Assembly (NCBI RefSeq): GCF_009371985.2
Contig: NZ_VIKU02000004.1
Location: forward strand, 186,001 to 250,000
DNA: 64,000 nt
Source of the DNA: Pelagihabitans pacificus
Lineage (GTDB): Bacteria > Bacteroidota > Bacteroidia > Flavobacteriales > Flavobacteriaceae
Reading direction: 5' to 3'
Part shown: positions 7,080 through 56,204 of the stretch, in pieces
Numbering within the stretch: the first letter of the stretch is position 1
How the letters are laid out: each line of letters starts with the position of its first letter
Program-made: the position numbers and the translations under genes
Notes under the pieces: generated by a model
What the model saw: the letters and a program-made list of their open reading frames with translations, nothing else
Database searches by the model: none
What the model was told of the DNA's origin: nothing

Positions 7080-8153
7080 TTGAAATCGGAGGACTACATC
7101 AAAGGTCGTGGGGCACAGAAAAAGGTACCCAACAGGTTTTTGCGGCATATCTACGAAACCAGGGATGACTTCCTGGAATTCTGTCACATAGAAGGGGAGG
7201 AATTCGATTCTAACAAGACCCAGTACCTTCCCATTTTTCCCAAGACAATCATTAACAAGGTTACGAGTCCCGATGTAGGGATGCAATATTCCATGAACCC
7301 CTATCAAGGTTGTGAACATGGTTGTGTGTATTGCTACGCACGGAACACGCATGAATTTTGGGGCTATGGTGCCGGCCTCGATTTTGAACGACGGATATTG
7401 ATTAAGAAAGATGCGGCCAAACTCCTTGAAGCCAAACTAAAAAGCAAAAGTTGGAAGGCCGAAACGATTGTACTATCCGGCAATACCGATTGCTACCAAC
7501 CAGCGGAGCAGCAGTTCGGGATTACCAGGGCCTGTTTGGAAGTGTTTGCAAAATACAAACATCCGGTAGGCATCATCACTAAAAATGCCCTAATACGTCG
7601 CGATTTGGATATTTTGAAGGAACTGGCCAAAGACAATCTGATTGGGGTCAATGTATCGGTGACCTCGTTGTCGGAGGAAACCAGACGCATTCTTGAACCG
7701 CGAACAGCTTCCATAAAAAAGCGCCTTGAAACGATAAAAATCCTTTCGGAAAACAATATTCCCGTCAATGCGATGTTGGCCCCTATTATTCCGGGTATCA
7801 ATAGCCATGAAATCATGGGTCTTGCCGAGGCCGTAGCCGATCATGGGGCGCGTTCTTTTGCCTTTACCGTGGTACGCCTCAATGGAGCCATTGGGCAGAT
7901 TTTCACCGACTGGATCAAGAAAACCTTGCCCGGCAAAGCCGAAAAGGTACTAAACCAAATCAAGGAGTGCCATGGTGGCACCCTCAATGACAGTCGGTTT
8001 GGTATTCGAAGCAGGGGCGAGGGAAAAATTGCCAAACAAATACACGACTTAATGAGGTTGGCACAACGGCGTTACTTTGCCAACCGTAAATTTCCAACTC
8101 TCAACAAGGATTTGTATGGGCAGTATAAAGACGGGCAATTTCGACTTTTTTAA
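7080..8153 (+). CDS. PA0069 family radical SAM protein
   Basis: A 357-residue radical SAM enzyme. The iron-sulfur motif C-x3-C-x2-C is Cys78, Cys82 and Cys85 in GCEHGCVYCYARNTHEF. The N-terminal YIKGRGAQ and the DFERRILIK pattern match the PA0069 subfamily, whose members resemble the spore photoproduct lyase/Elp3 side of the superfamily. The reaction is not known. The start is TTG at 7080; no in-frame ATG gives the conserved GRGAQ N-terminus. It directly abuts the perfect inverted repeat, which probably controls it. Confidence 0.9.
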   Translation: MKSEDYIKGRGAQKKVPNRFLRHIYETRDDFLEFCHIEGEEFDSNKTQYLPIFPKTIINKVTSPDVGMQYSMNPYQGCEHGCVYCYARNTHEFWGYGAGLDFERRILIKKDAAKLLEAKLKSKSWKAETIVLSGNTDCYQPAEQQFGITRACLEVFAKYKHPVGIITKNALIRRDLDILKELAKDNLIGVNVSVTSLSEETRRILEPRTASIKKRLETIKILSENNIPVNAMLAPIIPGINSHEIMGLAEAVADHGARSFAFTVVRLNGAIGQIFTDWIKKTLPGKAEKVLNQIKECHGGTLNDSRFGIRSRGEGKIAKQIHDLMRLAQRRYFANRKFPTLNKDLYGQYKDGQFRLF

Positions 8154-49111: not shown

Positions 49112-50050
49112 ATGAAACATACTATATTGATTATCGGTGCATGTGGCCAGATCGGCACGGAACTCACGTTCAATCTCCGACAGAAATACGGTTCTGACAA
49201 AGTGATTGCAAGCGACATACGCGAAGGCAGTGAAGACTTGATGCATTCCGGGCCTTTCGAAATATTGGACGCCACCGATTATGATGCTTTGGAAGAGGTA
49301 GTTGCCTACTATGAGGTGGGAGAAGTATATTTGATGGCGGCCATGCTGAGTGCTACGGCTGAAAAGTTTCCTGAACGTGCCTGGAACCTCAATATGAATT
49401 CGCTGTTCAATGTGTTGAACCTAGGGAAGGAAAAGAAGGTTGAAAGAATATTTTGGCCATCGAGCATTGCCGTATTCGGACCAAACACCCCTAAGGACCA
49501 AACACCACAGCATACTATGATGGAGCCCAGCACGGTCTATGGTATCAGCAAACTGTCCGGTGAACGTTGGTGTGAATATTATTTTAAAAAGTTTGGAGTC
49601 GATGTAAGAAGTGTTCGCTATCCCGGCTTAATCAGTTGGAAAACCATGCCGGGTGGGGGCACTACCGATTATGCCGTGGAGATTTATCACGAGGCCGTGG
49701 CGGGTAATACGTTCAACTGTTTTTTAAAGGGCGATACCAAACTGCCGATGATGTACATGGAGGATGCCATTCGTGCGACCTTGGAACTTATGGAGGCCGA
49801 TGCCGAAAAAATCAGAATACGCTCCTCTTATAACCTCGCTGCGATGAGTTTTACCCCAAAAGAAATTGCCCAAAGCATTCAGCAACGATTTCCTGATTTC
49901 AAGGTTGTGTACGAGCCCGATTACCGGCAAGCCATCGCCGATTCCTGGCCCAACAGTATAGATGATTCCCTTGCCCGAAAAGATTGGGGCTGGACACCGG
50001 AATTTGACTTGGAAAAGACAACCGGTGAGATGTTGGCCCATCTAAGCTAG
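49112..50050 (+). CDS. L-threonine 3-dehydrogenase, SDR type
   Basis: A 312-residue protein oxidising L-threonine to 2-amino-3-oxobutyrate with NAD+. It has the Rossmann motif GACGQIG (9-15), catalytic Tyr143 and Lys147 in YGISK, and substrate-loop phrases SIAVFGP, YPGLISW and [15 protein letters not shown]. These match the epimerase-like threonine dehydrogenase described from Flavobacterium frigidimaris, not the zinc-type enzyme. Its end overlaps the end of the convergent RimK-type gene by nine bases. Confidence 0.92.
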
Positions 50051-51418
50051 GGAACTGAATTTCAATTTTTTCTCGATGGCCATAATCATCGAATTGGCAA
50101 TATCCTGTCCCGTTGCATTTTCGATTCCTTCCAAACCTGGTGATGAATTGACTTCCAATAATAACGGGCCTTTATTCGAACGGATAATGTCCACCCCAGC
50201 GACCGCCAAGTTCAATACTTTTGCTGCCTTTAGGGCCAATTTCCGTTCTTCCTGGGTTATTTTGATGATGGACGCTTTGCCACCTTGGTGAATATTGGCT
50301 CTGAATTCACCCTTTTCGGCCTGTCGCTGCATCGAAGCCACCACTTTCCCATTGACCACGAAACAACGAATGTCCTGGCCGTTAGCCTCTTTAATGAATT
50401 CTTGGACCAGGATATTGGTGTTGACACTTTTGAACGCGTTGATAACGCTTTCGGCCGCTTTATTGGTCTCTGCAAGCACCACCCCTTTTCCTTGTGTACT
50501 TTCGAGAAGTTTAATAATCAACGGCGCTCCGTTGACCATTCGAATAAGATCCTTGGTATCCATTGGTGATTTGGCAAAACCGGTTATGGGAATATGGATG
50601 TCGTTTTTGGAAAACAATTGCGAAGCGAACAATTTATCGCGGGACTGGGCAATCGCCTCTGCAGAGTTCTGACAATATACGCCCAAATTATCGAACTGTC
50701 GTATCAATGCACAGCCATAAAAGGTGACCGAAGGTTTTATTCGGGGAATGACCGCATCAAATTCGTTGAGGATATTCCCCCCACGGTACCGAATCTCGGG
50801 CGAACGGGCATCCAATTTCATGTACGCCAATTCTACGTTGAGAAACACGATTTCATGTCCTCTGGCCTCCGCTGCCTCGACCAGCCTTTTATTGCTGTAT
50901 AATTCAGGGTTGCTCGCCAATAGGGCAATTTTTAATCCAGTTTTTTCCTTAAAGTAAGGAGCATAGATCGAATTCAATTCTTCTTCCTTGAAGTCCTGGA
51001 TCGCATAGCTATCGGCAGGATTAACCATATACCTATTGGTGAGGGCCTCCCGCCCTAGGAGCATTCGAAACTCCATAGTATCCCGATTGGCCAAAGTAAG
51101 CTCTATTCCGAATGTATCATGGCCGAGGGCAACCGGTGTTTTGACTACTAAGCGCTCTTCGGAGATTCCCGAGGAGCTTTTTACCATGCGTCTATCAATC
51201 AGACGGGCATCGCATTCAATGGCAATGCTTCGATTCTCCTGTAGGGGGTTCACCTCAAATTTTACCCACTCCTGGGCTCCCTTGTTGTATACCTTTATAT
51301 TGGTCGCCTGGATCGACGAGGTTTTGGCACCGGAATCGACCCTGGCCTTAATGGCCGGAATCCCCATATCGGGAAAAATGCACCATTCCTCACTACCTAT
51401 AATTTTTAATTTTTTCAA
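50042..51418 (-). CDS. RimB-like protease and RimK-like ATP-grasp ligase fusion
   Basis: A 458-residue fusion. Residues 1-150 form a retropepsin-like ATP-dependent zinc protease domain with [11 protein letters not shown]. Residues 155-458 form a RimK-type ATP-grasp ligase ([57 protein letters not shown]). In Pseudomonas, RimK adds glutamates to ribosomal protein S6 and RimB processes the tail. A fusion would hold adding and trimming in one polypeptide. Substrate here is inferred only. Confidence 0.88.
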
Positions 51419-51946: not shown

Positions 51947-52357
51947 CTATTTTTGTTTACAGACTAGCTTATCAATAGCACAACCCCCTTGTCCAAATAA
52001 GTCTTTTGTCGATTGCGAAGCGTACGAACGGCGCCAAACTGGTTCAATTCCCTTCGTTACAGCAATAACTACTTCGGCAATCAAGACTATCCCCGTATAG
52101 AGGGTGGTGGCCACCGCGTTGATGCCATTGGTCGGAAATGAAAAGTGACAGGGCGTAATTGTGCCCAGGCCCGGGCCATCGAGCATGAATACTACCTTGC
52201 ACCCTTGAGAGTTATCCAACAGTGTTTCATTATGGCCTTCTTCCCAATAAGGGTCCTGCGTATTTTGGTAAGACGGTATCATGGCTTTCCTGGGCTCCTT
52301 AGAATCCCCTACGTCCAAAAATTCAAGTCCAATATTTTCGATTTCATCCATTTTCAT
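51947..52357 (-). CDS. Unrecognised small cysteine-containing protein
   Basis: A 136-residue protein without a recognised family. The acidic, leader-like first 50 residues are followed by four spaced cysteines (QGCK, TPCHF, GGCAI, VCKQK) and one hydrophobic segment (about 82-104, TTLYTGIVLIAEVVIAV). There is no N-terminal signal peptide. The layout resembles a precursor peptide with leader and hydrophobic core, but no export or maturation gene is adjacent. Confidence 0.5.
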   Translation of the reverse strand: MKMDEIENIGLEFLDVGDSKEPRKAMIPSYQNTQDPYWEEGHNETLLDNSQGCKVVFMLDGPGLGTITPCHFSFPTNGINAVATTLYTGIVLIAEVVIAVTKGIEPVWRRSYASQSTKDLFGQGGCAIDKLVCKQK

Positions 52358-52492: not shown

Positions 52493-52816
52493 TCAGATGT
52501 CATCGTTTTCGTCGGATAGATCCTCCGGATCGGGCTCAACTACCGCTGTGGGATCGTCATCTTCAAAATCGGCATAGTCGTCCTCATCGTAGTTTTCCAT
52601 GGTATACTCGAGTTTGGCACTGATCTTCACCAGATACTTGGTATCCTCGGTAAGTACCTCGACCGCCTCGATGCGCTCCCCGTGGGAATTTCGAAACGTG
52701 ATGATGTTACGATCATCGTATCCATCAGGGTAGCGCTCCACCAGAAGTTTGAGAACCTCCGGGGTCAGCTTCTTGAAATCAACGATGACTCTTTTTAAGT
52801 TTGGGTGCCTGTCCAT
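52493..52816 (-). CDS. Acidic hypothetical protein of the polyamine operon
   Basis: A 107-residue protein. Residues 1-70 are a compact domain (VIVDFKKLTPEVLKLLVERYP, then ITFRNSHGERIEAVEV), and the last 35 are almost entirely Asp/Glu. It follows the deoxyhypusine-synthase-like gene by two bases. No family function is known to me. The acidic tail could bind a polycation, but that is only inference. Confidence 0.8.
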   Translation of the reverse strand: MDRHPNLKRVIVDFKKLTPEVLKLLVERYPDGYDDRNIITFRNSHGERIEAVEVLTEDTKYLVKISAKLEYTMENYDEDDYADFEDDDPTAVVEPDPEDLSDENDDI

Positions 52817-52818
52817 AA

Positions 52819-53796
52819 TTACATATCCAAAAGGTAAGCAAAAATTAGGGGAGCCACAATAGTGGCATCACTTTCAATGATAAATTTTGGAGTATCGATG
52901 TCCAGTTTGCCCCAGGTAATCTTCTCATTGGGTACCGCTCCGGAATACGACCCGTAACTGGTGGTACTGTCACTGATCTGACAAAAGTAACTCCAAAAAG
53001 GCGTATCGGTCCGTTCCATATCTTGATACAACATCGGCACCACACATATGGGAAAGTCGCCGGCAATACCCCCACCTATCTGAAAAAATCCGATACCATT
53101 GTCGGCATTGTCGGTATACCAGTCGGCCAGAAAGGTCATATATTCGATTCCCGATTTCATGGTGCTTGCCTTTAGTTCGCCTTTGAGCACGTAGGAGGCA
53201 AAGATGTTGCCCATGGTACTATCTTCCCAGCCGGGGCATACAAGCGGTAAATTTTTTTCAGCGGCTGCAAACATCCAGGAATCCTTGATGTCGATTTCAT
53301 AATATTGTTCCAAGACCCCTGATAAGAGCATTTTGTACATAAACTCATGGGGGAAATAGCGTTCTCCTGCTTCTTCCGCGTCTTTCCAGATTTTAAAGAT
53401 ATGTTGTTGTAGGCGTCGAAAGGCTTCCTCTTCGGGAATGCAAGTATCGGTGACCCGATTGAGTCCCTTTTCCAATAAGGCCCATTCATCTTTTGGTGTC
53501 AGATCACGATATTCGGGCACCCGCTTGTAGTGCGAATGGGCCACTAGGTTCATAATATCTTCCTCCAGGTTTGCACCCGTACAGGAGATAATATGTACTT
53601 TTTCCTGTCGAATAATCTCTGCCAAAATCTTCCCCAGTTCGGCGGTCGACATCGCACCGGCCAACGACACCAACATCTTGGCTCCTTTGTTGAGCTGCGC
53701 TTCGTAACCTTTTGCCGCATCGACGAGGGCGGCCGCGTTGAAATGCAGATAATAATTCTCGATAAAATTTGAAATAGGCCCTTTAGTCCTCATCAT
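52819..53796 (-). CDS. Deoxyhypusine synthase-like protein, probably homospermidine synthase
   Basis: A 325-residue homologue of deoxyhypusine synthase. Motifs: AGAMSTAELGKIL, SCTGANLEEDIMNLVAHSHY, CPGWEDSTMG and the imine-forming lysine at Lys297 in ITWGKLD. NAD-dependent transfer of an aminobutyl group from spermidine is the family chemistry. Bacteria lack eIF5A, so a small amine acceptor such as putrescine is more likely, giving homospermidine. It overlaps the agmatinase gene by 14 bases. Confidence 0.85.
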   Translation of the reverse strand: MMRTKGPISNFIENYYLHFNAAALVDAAKGYEAQLNKGAKMLVSLAGAMSTAELGKILAEIIRQEKVHIISCTGANLEEDIMNLVAHSHYKRVPEYRDLTPKDEWALLEKGLNRVTDTCIPEEEAFRRLQQHIFKIWKDAEEAGERYFPHEFMYKMLLSGVLEQYYEIDIKDSWMFAAAEKNLPLVCPGWEDSTMGNIFASYVLKGELKASTMKSGIEYMTFLADWYTDNADNGIGFFQIGGGIAGDFPICVVPMLYQDMERTDTPFWSYFCQISDSTTSYGSYSGAVPNEKITWGKLDIDTPKFIIESDATIVAPLIFAYLLDM

Positions 53797-54724
53797 GGTT
53801 AAATTTTTTGTTCGGCGCTACCGGTTTCCGGGCGGTGTCATACGTATTGTCGTACTCATCCTCGGCGGCCTGCCCCATGAATTTATAGCTCAACATTTTA
53901 TAATAGAGTTTGGCAGCAAGAAAATCGCTATGCTTATCTACCTCGTTCGGGCAAAGTTCTACCAGGTCAAAACCGACCACATTTTTCTCCTCGAACACCT
54001 GTTTAAGAAAATCGAGGGTCTCGTACCAGAATAATCCTCCCGGTTCGGGTGTGCCGGTCGACGGCATGATGGAAGGATCCAAGGCATCGAGGTCAAACGT
54101 GATGAACACATTTTCGGTTAAGGTATCGATGGCTTTATCCATCCAATATTCGTCATTGGCCATTTCGTGGGCAAAAAAGGTCTTTTCTTCATCCATGTAA
54201 GTCTTTTCGATGGCATCCATGCTTCGGATGCCTACCTGCACCAAATTGGTCGTTTGGCTAGCCTCATGTACGGCACAGGCATGGTTGTAAGGTGTGCCCT
54301 CGTAGTATTTTCGGAGGTCGGCATGCGCATCGATATGCAATACCGAGAGGTTATCGAAACATTCGTTAAAGGCCCGAATAGTCCCGATGGAAATAGAATG
54401 TTCCCCACCGAACAGGGTTACGAACTTGTTTCTTTTAATATACTCCTTGGTTTTTGTATGTACTGCATTGACCATTTCCTCCGGGCTACTAAATGCGGTA
54501 ATGGCTTCGGCTAAATAAATGCCTTGCTCATAGACTTCGGTATCGGTCTCGATATCATAGAGTTCCATGTTCGCCGAAGCTTCCAAAAAGGCTGAAGGCC
54601 CTTTATCGGCACCTTTACCCCAGGTACTGGTGCCATCGTAAGGGACGGGTATTAATATTATTTTAGCTTTTTCCAATTGCGCGAACTCGTCAGGAATTCC
54701 AGCGTAATTCTTAATTGCGTTCAT
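53783..54724 (-). CDS. speB: Agmatinase (arginase/ureohydrolase family)
   Basis: A 313-residue ureohydrolase with the dimanganese ligands His109 (GGEHS), Asp132-x-His134-x-Asp136 (IDAHADLR) and DLDALDPS. It hydrolyses agmatine to putrescine and urea. Agmatinase is favoured over arginase because the arginine decarboxylase gene lies 28 bases upstream. It overlaps the deoxyhypusine-synthase-like gene, so expression is coupled. Confidence 0.88.
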   Translation of the reverse strand: MNAIKNYAGIPDEFAQLEKAKIILIPVPYDGTSTWGKGADKGPSAFLEASANMELYDIETDTEVYEQGIYLAEAITAFSSPEEMVNAVHTKTKEYIKRNKFVTLFGGEHSISIGTIRAFNECFDNLSVLHIDAHADLRKYYEGTPYNHACAVHEASQTTNLVQVGIRSMDAIEKTYMDEEKTFFAHEMANDEYWMDKAIDTLTENVFITFDLDALDPSIMPSTGTPEPGGLFWYETLDFLKQVFEEKNVVGFDLVELCPNEVDKHSDFLAAKLYYKMLSYKFMGQAAEDEYDNTYDTARKPVAPNKKFNHDED

Positions 54725-54752
54725 TTTTTATTTCCTTTTATTTTATGATTCG

Positions 54753-56204
54753 TTACTTCAGGCCACTAGTCTGCAGTGTTTCCGCTTTTGACGCTTTCTT
54801 GGCTTTTTCCTGCCCGTATCCCAAAATGTTCAAAAAGTCTTCGGCTTTTTGTTGGGGGCTGAACAGTTCATACATTAATGTTCCGTTTGCATCCCTGTTG
54901 ATCAGGATATGCTTGGGTTGTGGTATCAGGCAATGTTGCAGGCCTCCGTACCCTCCTATCGTTTCCTGATAGGCTCCGGTATTGAAGAAACCGATATACA
55001 GCGGTTTGTCTCGCTTGTATTTGGGCAAATAAATTGCGTTCATATGCTGCTCACTGTTGTAATAATCATCACTGTCACAAGTAAGCCCACCCAATAAGAC
55101 CCGCTCGTACTCGTCGTACCACCGATTAATGGGCAACATGATAAAACGCTTGTTGATCGCCCAGGTATCGGGTAAGGTGGTGATGAACGACGAATCGATC
55201 ATGTTCCATTTCTCACGATCGTTCTGCTGTTTCTGGTACAGAATTTCGTAAATGGCCCCGCCGCTTTCGCCTACCGTAAAGCTTCCGAACTCCGTGAAGA
55301 TATGCGGTACCGCTACATCTGCTTCGGCACAGGCAATGCTGATTTGGTTCAAAATCTCATCGACCATATACTGGTAATCGTACTCGAAGGCCAAGGAGCT
55401 TTTGATGGGGAAGCCTCCTCCGATATTTAGGCTATCCAACGATGGACAGATTTTTTTCAACCGTACATACACCTTTAGACATTTTGCCAATTCGTTCCAG
55501 TAATACGCATTGTCGCGGATGCCGGTATTGATAAAGAAGTGGAGCATTTTGAGCTCGACCTTGTCATGGTTCTTAATTTGATTTTCGTAGAACGGAACAA
55601 TGTTCTTATAACCGATTCCCAAGCGGGAGGTATAGAATTCGAACTTGGGCTCTTCTTCCGAGGCGATTCGGATACCTACCTTGAAAGAACCATCGATGGC
55701 CTCGGTCAGTAAATCGATTTCCTCATAATTATCGATGATCGGGATACAGTTTTCATGGCCTTCGTTGATCAAACGGGCGATGTTTTCGATATAGTGGTCC
55801 CTTTTGAAACCATTACAGATGACGTAGGTGTCGTTTTTGATTCCCCCGGTCCTTTTAAGCTGCTCTACAATATTGATATCAAAGGCAGACGAAGTCTCGA
55901 TATGGATGTCGTTCTTTAAGGCTTCATTCAACACATGATGAAAATGCGAACTTTTGGTACAATAACAATAGTAGTATTTTCCCTGATAGTCTCTTTTGGC
56001 CATGGCCATTGCAAACCAGTTTTTAGCGTGCTGGATGTTTTCTGAAATCTTGGGCAAATAGGTGAATTTCAAAGGACTTCCATAGCGTTCAACGAGTTCG
56101 TTCAGGGGAATGTCGTGAAAGCGAAGATATTCGCCCTCCAAGGTAAACTCTTCCTGGGGAAAGTAGTATGTTTGATCGATCAGATCAATGTATTTGGTAT
56201 TCAT
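54753..56204 (-). CDS. speA: Biosynthetic arginine decarboxylase (PLP, alanine-racemase fold)
   Basis: A 483-residue PLP enzyme. The cofactor lysine is Lys84 in YCYCTKSSHF. NIGGGFPIKSSL, TEFGSFTVGESG and GGLTCDSDDYYN are the phosphate- and substrate-binding parts. It converts arginine to agmatine. It is shorter than proteobacterial SpeA (about 630-660 residues), which carries extra domains. It is the first gene of the operon. Confidence 0.9.
   Translation of the reverse strand: MNTKYIDLIDQTYYFPQEEFTLEGEYLRFHDIPLNELVERYGSPLKFTYLPKISENIQHAKNWFAMAMAKRDYQGKYYYCYCTKSSHFHHVLNEALKNDIHIETSSAFDINIVEQLKRTGGIKNDTYVICNGFKRDHYIENIARLINEGHENCIPIIDNYEEIDLLTEAIDGSFKVGIRIASEEEPKFEFYTSRLGIGYKNIVPFYENQIKNHDKVELKMLHFFINTGIRDNAYYWNELAKCLKVYVRLKKICPSLDSLNIGGGFPIKSSLAFEYDYQYMVDEILNQISIACAEADVAVPHIFTEFGSFTVGESGGAIYEILYQKQQNDREKWNMIDSSFITTLPDTWAINKRFIMLPINRWYDEYERVLLGGLTCDSDDYYNSEQHMNAIYLPKYKRDKPLYIGFFNTGAYQETIGGYGGLQHCLIPQPKHILINRDANGTLMYELFSPQQKAEDFLNILGYGQEKAKKASKAETLQTSGLK

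Follow-up and report, generated by a model that had tools for sequence, protein, structure and literature searches.

The 64,000-nucleotide stretch of Pelagihabitans pacificus DNA analysed here (the window) carries, at 52493-56204 on the minus strand, an operon of four genes: a short arginine decarboxylase (ADC), an agmatinase-family ureohydrolase (SpeB), a homologue of deoxyhypusine synthase (DHS) and a small acidic protein. Judged from the sequences and their context, the operon probably makes sym-homospermidine from arginine, with the DHS homologue joining two putrescines. ADC would decarboxylate arginine to agmatine, agmatinase would free urea from agmatine to leave putrescine, and the DHS homologue would turn two putrescines into sym-homospermidine. 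We infer the reaction, the substrate and an imine mechanism by analogy with DHS: bound NAD would oxidise one putrescine, and the aminobutyl group, held as an imine on K297, would be handed to the amine of the second putrescine and then reduced. An earlier, sequence-only reading of this DNA had proposed the same product, which is supported by gene co-occurrence, the missing eIF5A, the lack of the two spermidine markers searched for in the window genome, an alternation of enzymes in relatives and published polyamine profiles. No paper naming the homospermidine synthase of Flavobacteriaceae was found in the literature searched, and the operon offers a specific, testable gene for homospermidine synthesis in this family.

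The gene identities rest on family models and solved structures. The PLP (pyridoxal phosphate)-dependent ADC (54753..56204, minus strand, 483 aa, PF02784) matches Orn_Arg_deC_N at E 7.4e-14; its best NCBIfam match, PRK05354, is under the cut-off (161.4 of 369 bits), and the solved structures nearest to it are arginine decarboxylases. SpeB (53783..54724, minus strand, 313 aa) matches the Pfam family Arginase at E 9.5e-64 and passes the agmatinase model TIGR01230 (NCBIfam; 227.5 bits against a cut-off of 174.3), with the agmatine ureohydrolase 3pzl as its best solved-structure match. The DHS homologue, our proposed putrescine-dependent homospermidine synthase (52819..53796, minus strand, 325 aa), matches DS (PF01916) at E 1e-41 and with 143.5 bits against a cut-off of 27, which places it in the deoxyhypusine synthase superfamily. 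The small acidic protein (52493..52816, minus strand, 107 aa) belongs to a family without a Pfam name that is recognised by its homologues in relatives. A gap of 28 bp separates ADC from SpeB, the ends of SpeB and DHS share 14 bp, and 2 bp lie between DHS and the acidic gene; the four genes and the overlap or short gaps among the last three had been seen from the sequence, and both observations hold. The arrangement is not chance, because the same order recurs in many genomes.

The predicted structure of the DHS homologue (mean pLDDT 89.4) finds human DHS as its best fold match (1dhs, E 5.7e-16, TM 0.77, 18% identity). K297, encoded at 52906..52908 on the minus strand, sits in the motif GSYSGAVPNEKITWGK and matches, in the alignment, the WGK lysine of human DHS and of CdmS-type proteins, in agreement with the catalytic Lys297 of the sequence-only reading. 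Is it then a DHS proper? The protein partner of such an enzyme, the translation factor eIF5A, which DHS modifies in animals and archaea, has no match in any of the 60 genomes of relatives searched, the window's own included, which argues against it and bears out the expectation that eIF5A is absent. In the control, eIF5A was found in three of 14 named genomes, all three archaea, of which there were four among the controls.

The window protein is, by alignment and tree, a member of a third, long-branched clade of DHS homologues with its own invariant pocket residues. Of 296 genomes sampled across the phylum, 233 contain PF01916, with scores that form broadly three groups, and ten representatives (five high-scoring, two middle and three of the window group) were scanned against NCBIfam. 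Four of the five high-scoring proteins pass the CdmS model PRK02492, while the fifth (L142) passes no model; both middle ones pass the SpeY model PRK00770; the three of the window group, like the window protein itself, pass no NCBIfam DHS-type model. The window protein reaches 109.2 of 450 bits against PRK00770 (101.8 to 126.4 bits for three other clade members) and 92.2 of 500 bits against PRK02492. In a 40-row tree the clade (16 rows) stands apart on a branch 4.98 changes per column long (support 100/100), although long-branch joins are flagged and the position of the clade relative to the other groups is not fixed by this tree. Positions N197, D247 and Y284 are N, D and Y in 16/16 clade rows; the same positions are M, N and L in 9/9 SpeY-type rows, F, N and L in the 11 CdmS-type rows (one with C instead of L), and D, H and D in human DHS. 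SpeY-type and CdmS-type are here labels by best BLAST match, with the NCBIfam models run on two and four of these rows respectively, and the SpeY proteins of Pelagibacter and Anabaena are not among the rows placed. The nearest named DHS relatives of the window protein belong to Flavobacteriaceae. A plasmid search returned the DHS homologue only in two records, both haloarchaeal (23-24% identity), and the acidic protein in none.

The pocket bears on an unlikely alternative, in which two agmatines would be joined and a ureohydrolase would remove both guanidino groups to give homospermidine. This is the caldomycin route, described in the available part of PMC10981699 for CdmS and TtSpeBap of Thermus thermophilus, and CdmS, itself a DHS homologue, lends it a precedent for agmatine-joining activity. 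However, the window protein stays under the cut-off of the CdmS model, and in all 16 clade rows Ala replaces Ser67 of CdmS, its proposed guanidino-binding residue, and Asn replaces Phe204. Of the CdmS pocket given in that paper (S67, E136, D143, F204, L286, E293), only two of six residues are kept in the window protein (A48, E122, Q130, N197, Y284, E291).

Of the 60 relatives, 29 have the DHS homologue and 31 have ADC, namely all 29 DHS-positive genomes and two of the 31 DHS-negative ones. A SpeB orthologue (>300 bits) accompanies DHS in 26 of the 29, and is missing in G024 (84% complete), G042 and G055. AdoMet decarboxylase, a marker of spermidine synthesis, is carried by the two genomes that have ADC without a DHS homologue: G044, where the AdoMet decarboxylase frame and a ureohydrolase gene overlap, and G057, where a contig end truncates ADC. 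In our reading, spermidine replaces homospermidine downstream of the same ADC in these two. Over all 60, AdoMet decarboxylase scores above the cut-off in nine: six strong matches (124 to 148 bits), all in DHS-negative genomes, and three weak ones (39 to 51 bits), including that of the DHS-positive G011. NspC is above its cut-off in one genome, again G011, and below it in 15 more. As a rule for the DHS-negative genomes, spermidine routes were rejected, since most of the 31 show neither NspC nor AdoMet decarboxylase. The agmatine deiminase family (PF04371) is matched in 13 of the 60 but not in the window genome, which rules the deiminase out as a partner there. Within the window's genus, six of ten genomes searched lack ADC, a SpeB orthologue and DHS (G001, G004, G006-G008 and G009, the last with locus L165; L004 is also cited for this group). 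None of the six has AdoMet decarboxylase or NspC over the cut-off; three are 81-87% complete, and two have agmatine deiminase-family matches.

These markers also bear on a transfer of the aminobutyl group from spermidine to putrescine, as in the plant homospermidine synthase, which we regard as highly improbable. The plant enzyme is a relative of DHS, according to a passage of PMC10981699, and Flavobacterium does hold small amounts of spermidine (PMC8570120, in part). But the window genome matches neither NspC nor AdoMet decarboxylase, so its spermidine would need to come from outside or from a pathway other than those covered by the two markers, and spermidine is a minor component of the profiles. 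For two Flavobacterium species, the part of PMC8570120 consulted gives sym-homospermidine as the major polyamine (27.3 and 20.5 umol per g dry weight), beside 0.7 and 0.2 umol per g of putrescine and 0.2 and 0.3 of spermidine. A genome paper, in the passage available, names homospermidine the major polyamine of all Flavobacteriaceae members (PMC3072086). Both sources agree with what the sequence-only reading had stated for many Flavobacteriaceae.

Which diamine does the DHS homologue receive? The 80 named loci that we compared are the best matches kept from a scan with a clade profile and are biased to close relatives. Their fetched flanks hold ADC in 78 and SpeB in 60; the acidic gene immediately follows DHS in 62 and lies farther downstream in six. 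Seventeen of them run aroB-ADC-DHS-acidic gene and lack SpeB in the flank (15 titled Flavobacterium, two Flavobacteriaceae), and an eighteenth such locus (L194), at a contig end, has the same layout minus only the aroB end. In a Flavobacterium-type genus (that of G079), all 41 genomes have a DHS homologue (partial at a contig end in G365), and 10/10 fetched DHS regions show the aroB-ADC-DHS-acidic gene order without SpeB, whichever putrescine-forming enzyme is present. Agmatine deiminase exceeds 250 bits in 23 of the 41 (a further genome, G367, matches at 96 bits), and U1, an agmatinase-like ureohydrolase class that we assigned from lengths and scores, with four members compared by sequence, occurs in 19; one genome has both, none has neither, and 22 have the deiminase without U1.

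The gene for the amidase of the deiminase pathway directly adjoins the deiminase gene in five of the six deiminase loci viewed in this genus, with one gene between them in the sixth. The deiminase pair at L265 and U1 at L268 adjoin the same kind of gene, a flavoprotein taken by eye for kynurenine 3-monooxygenase, as if the two had been swapped in place. U1 adjoins kynureninase-like genes at L268, L269 and L270, with a kynurenine monooxygenase-like gene in two of the three (by eye). In a distant clade member (L128), whose DHS homologue is 65% identical to the window's, the DHS gene is followed by SpeA (full-length), a homologue of N-carbamoylputrescine amidase (277.6 of 410.25 bits) and an incomplete frame of agmatine deiminase. 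Putrescine is the end product of the route through deiminase and amidase (PMC9992855, in part), and so the intermediate that these variants have in common. The relatives thus amount to a natural experiment: putrescine seems to reach the DHS homologue from different enzymes. As the constant partner of the supply variants, the homologue would most simply use putrescine, and the alternation favours putrescine over agmatine as its substrate; the 22 genomes with a deiminase and no U1 stand against the caldomycin route.

Several points weigh against the joining of two putrescines. The agmatinase present in most loci, including the SpeB-type gene in 60 of the best 80, would also suit a coupling of agmatine followed by the release of urea, and counts in favour of the caldomycin route. 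So do the arginase-family (PF00491) matches in all 41 genomes of the genus of G079, mostly two lower-scoring proteins, because of which the deiminase genomes, too, may have a ureohydrolase for a coupled product. The Fisher value for the alternation of deiminase and U1 (9.4e-11) ignores kinship, as do Fisher values generally here, the U1 class has the basis given above, and three of the four U1 members compared adjoin kynurenine-pathway-like genes (by eye). The window protein lies under the cut-off of all seven NCBIfam DHS-type models that it matches; with such scores and a pocket unlike those of SpeY and CdmS, the transfer of a substrate by homology is weak. No characterised member of the clade was found in a literature search that had most subscription papers outside its reach, and the passages of PMC11999265, PMC8503589, PMC12323627 and PMC8437039 contain no assay of one. 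ADC is not beside DHS in four of the 29 DHS-positive genomes (G031, G040, G053 and G055, from the stretches fetched), and the DHS-positive G011 also has NspC over the cut-off and the weak AdoMet decarboxylase match. Finally, the eIF5A search is not fully sensitive, because it missed the control archaeon Haloferax volcanii.

What does the acidic protein do? It has 31 Asp/Glu and 13 Lys/Arg among its 107 residues, and its C-terminal third is acidic. At E 0.001 it matches no family of Pfam or NCBIfam, a solved-structure profile search and Pfam scans gave weak, scattered matches only, and its predicted structure (pLDDT 72.5) has no fold match at E 0.001. The family occurs in 43 of the 60 relatives and in several families of the order. 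Its copies follow DHS in the ADC-SpeB-DHS order or directly follow aroB; the window genome contains both kinds, one copy of each (L001, L103). The aroB-linked arrangement recurs in many relatives (L016 and L021 among them), and at L016 NCBIfam identifies the aroB product as 3-dehydroquinate synthase. NAD serves in catalysis in both AroB and DHS, perhaps by coincidence. Since the Flavobacterium copy follows aroB-ADC-DHS, the two contexts may be historically one. In 45 copies that we selected on neighbourhood, Asp and Glu make up 40% of the tail in 21 aroB copies, 51% in 19 DHS-linked ones and 44% in five without an adjacent DHS. In G009, a genome in a single contig from the window's genus, the acidic gene lies between the same flanks, and neither ADC nor DHS has a match anywhere: at L165 the gene spans 7383-7706 and the next gene starts at 7948, two genes that lie 3.8 kb apart in the window. 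G014, G018 and G026 likewise have no DHS or ADC match and a copy between two genes that elsewhere flank the operon, by eye those of a pseudouridine synthase and of a membrane protein. The role of the acidic protein seems independent of the operon, because copies persist without the three biosynthetic genes.

The sequence-only reading had made this protein a buffer or regulator of polyamines and had suggested a survey of its co-occurrence with the operon; the survey found copies apart from the operon. The proposed role was rejected, because aroB-linked copies come close to the DHS-linked ones in acidity and the gene also occurs without ADC, the SpeB orthologue and DHS. At L128 (5064-5390) a 109-residue, mostly-aspartate protein adjoins the DHS homologue, and its homology to the window's acidic protein was not detected; this single occurrence is one point for the buffer idea.

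It is possible to see in the acidic protein the bacterial target of a protein-modifying DHS, though we hold this to be very improbable. The ancestry of the enzyme, the position of the acidic gene immediately after DHS in 62 of the 80 loci (with their bias to close relatives) and the conservation of K16 and K64 of the acidic protein in at least 90% of 49 homologues speak for such a modification. Yet the eIF5A search was empty in all 60 genomes, the acidic gene occurs in genomes without DHS (G009, G014, G018, G026), 12 of the best 80 loci have DHS with no acidic gene in the flank (some on short contigs), and the conserved lysines are also found in aroB-linked copies. A combination, in which the clade makes homospermidine and also aminobutylates K16 or K64 as the ancestral DHS activity in new form, has just as slight a chance; if true, the aminobutylated acidic protein would be a bacterial counterpart of hypusination.

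Downstream of the operon, the remnant of a gene for a GNAT/carbon-nitrogen-hydrolase fusion lies at 51995..52357 on the minus strand. Both of its ends match a relative of about 509 residues, of which it keeps about 66 N-terminal and about 55 C-terminal residues, most of the middle being missing. Such a fusion gene stands in the operon flank of 19 of the best 80 named loci. At 50042-51418, also on the minus strand, a single protein combines a RimB-like aspartic peptidase domain (under the NCBIfam cut-off) with a RimK glutamate ligase (over it).

Horizontal spread of DHS genes to bacteria is reportedly the subject, by its title, of a 2004 paper by Brochier. The window protein has the fold of human and archaeal DHS and retains E291, W295 and K297, but the eIF5A partner of those enzymes has no match in the window genome, and human D243, H288 and D316 are N, D and Y in the window clade. 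The human numbering of H288, E323 and W327 is the one we assume; that of D243, D316 and K329 is as in PMC10981699 (in part). The bacterial homospermidine synthase (HSS) of the Blastochloris type, which has the same proposed product, is not a homologue but related to carboxyspermidine dehydrogenase, according to a passage of PMC9992855. The window protein does not belong with it: PF01916 is its sole Pfam match at E 0.001, and its model matches DHS structures.

The closest parallels are SpeY and CdmS, on which the sequence-only reading was silent: through them, DHS homologues are known to produce homospermidine, or a precursor of it, in bacteria (PMC9992855; PMC10981699, each in part), and the window protein passes the curated model of neither. 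SpeY of Anabaena and Pelagibacter is a DHS homologue as in the window, and the Pelagibacter cluster also holds arginine decarboxylase and putrescine-forming genes (a passage of PMC9992855). In our reading the window protein functions as SpeY does, and the genomic context is consistent with homospermidine formation from putrescine. However, because the curated PRK00770 cut-off is not reached it is not classed as SpeY, and it differs at N197, D247 and Y284, where SpeY-type rows have M, N and L. CdmS, the caldomycin synthase of Thermus thermophilus, shares the DHS ancestry, the lysine and a ureohydrolase route to homospermidine (PMC10981699, in part), but its substrate is agmatine, and its Ser67 and Phe204 are not kept in the window clade. 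The clade would stand as a third DHS-like bacterial lineage, beside SpeY and CdmS.

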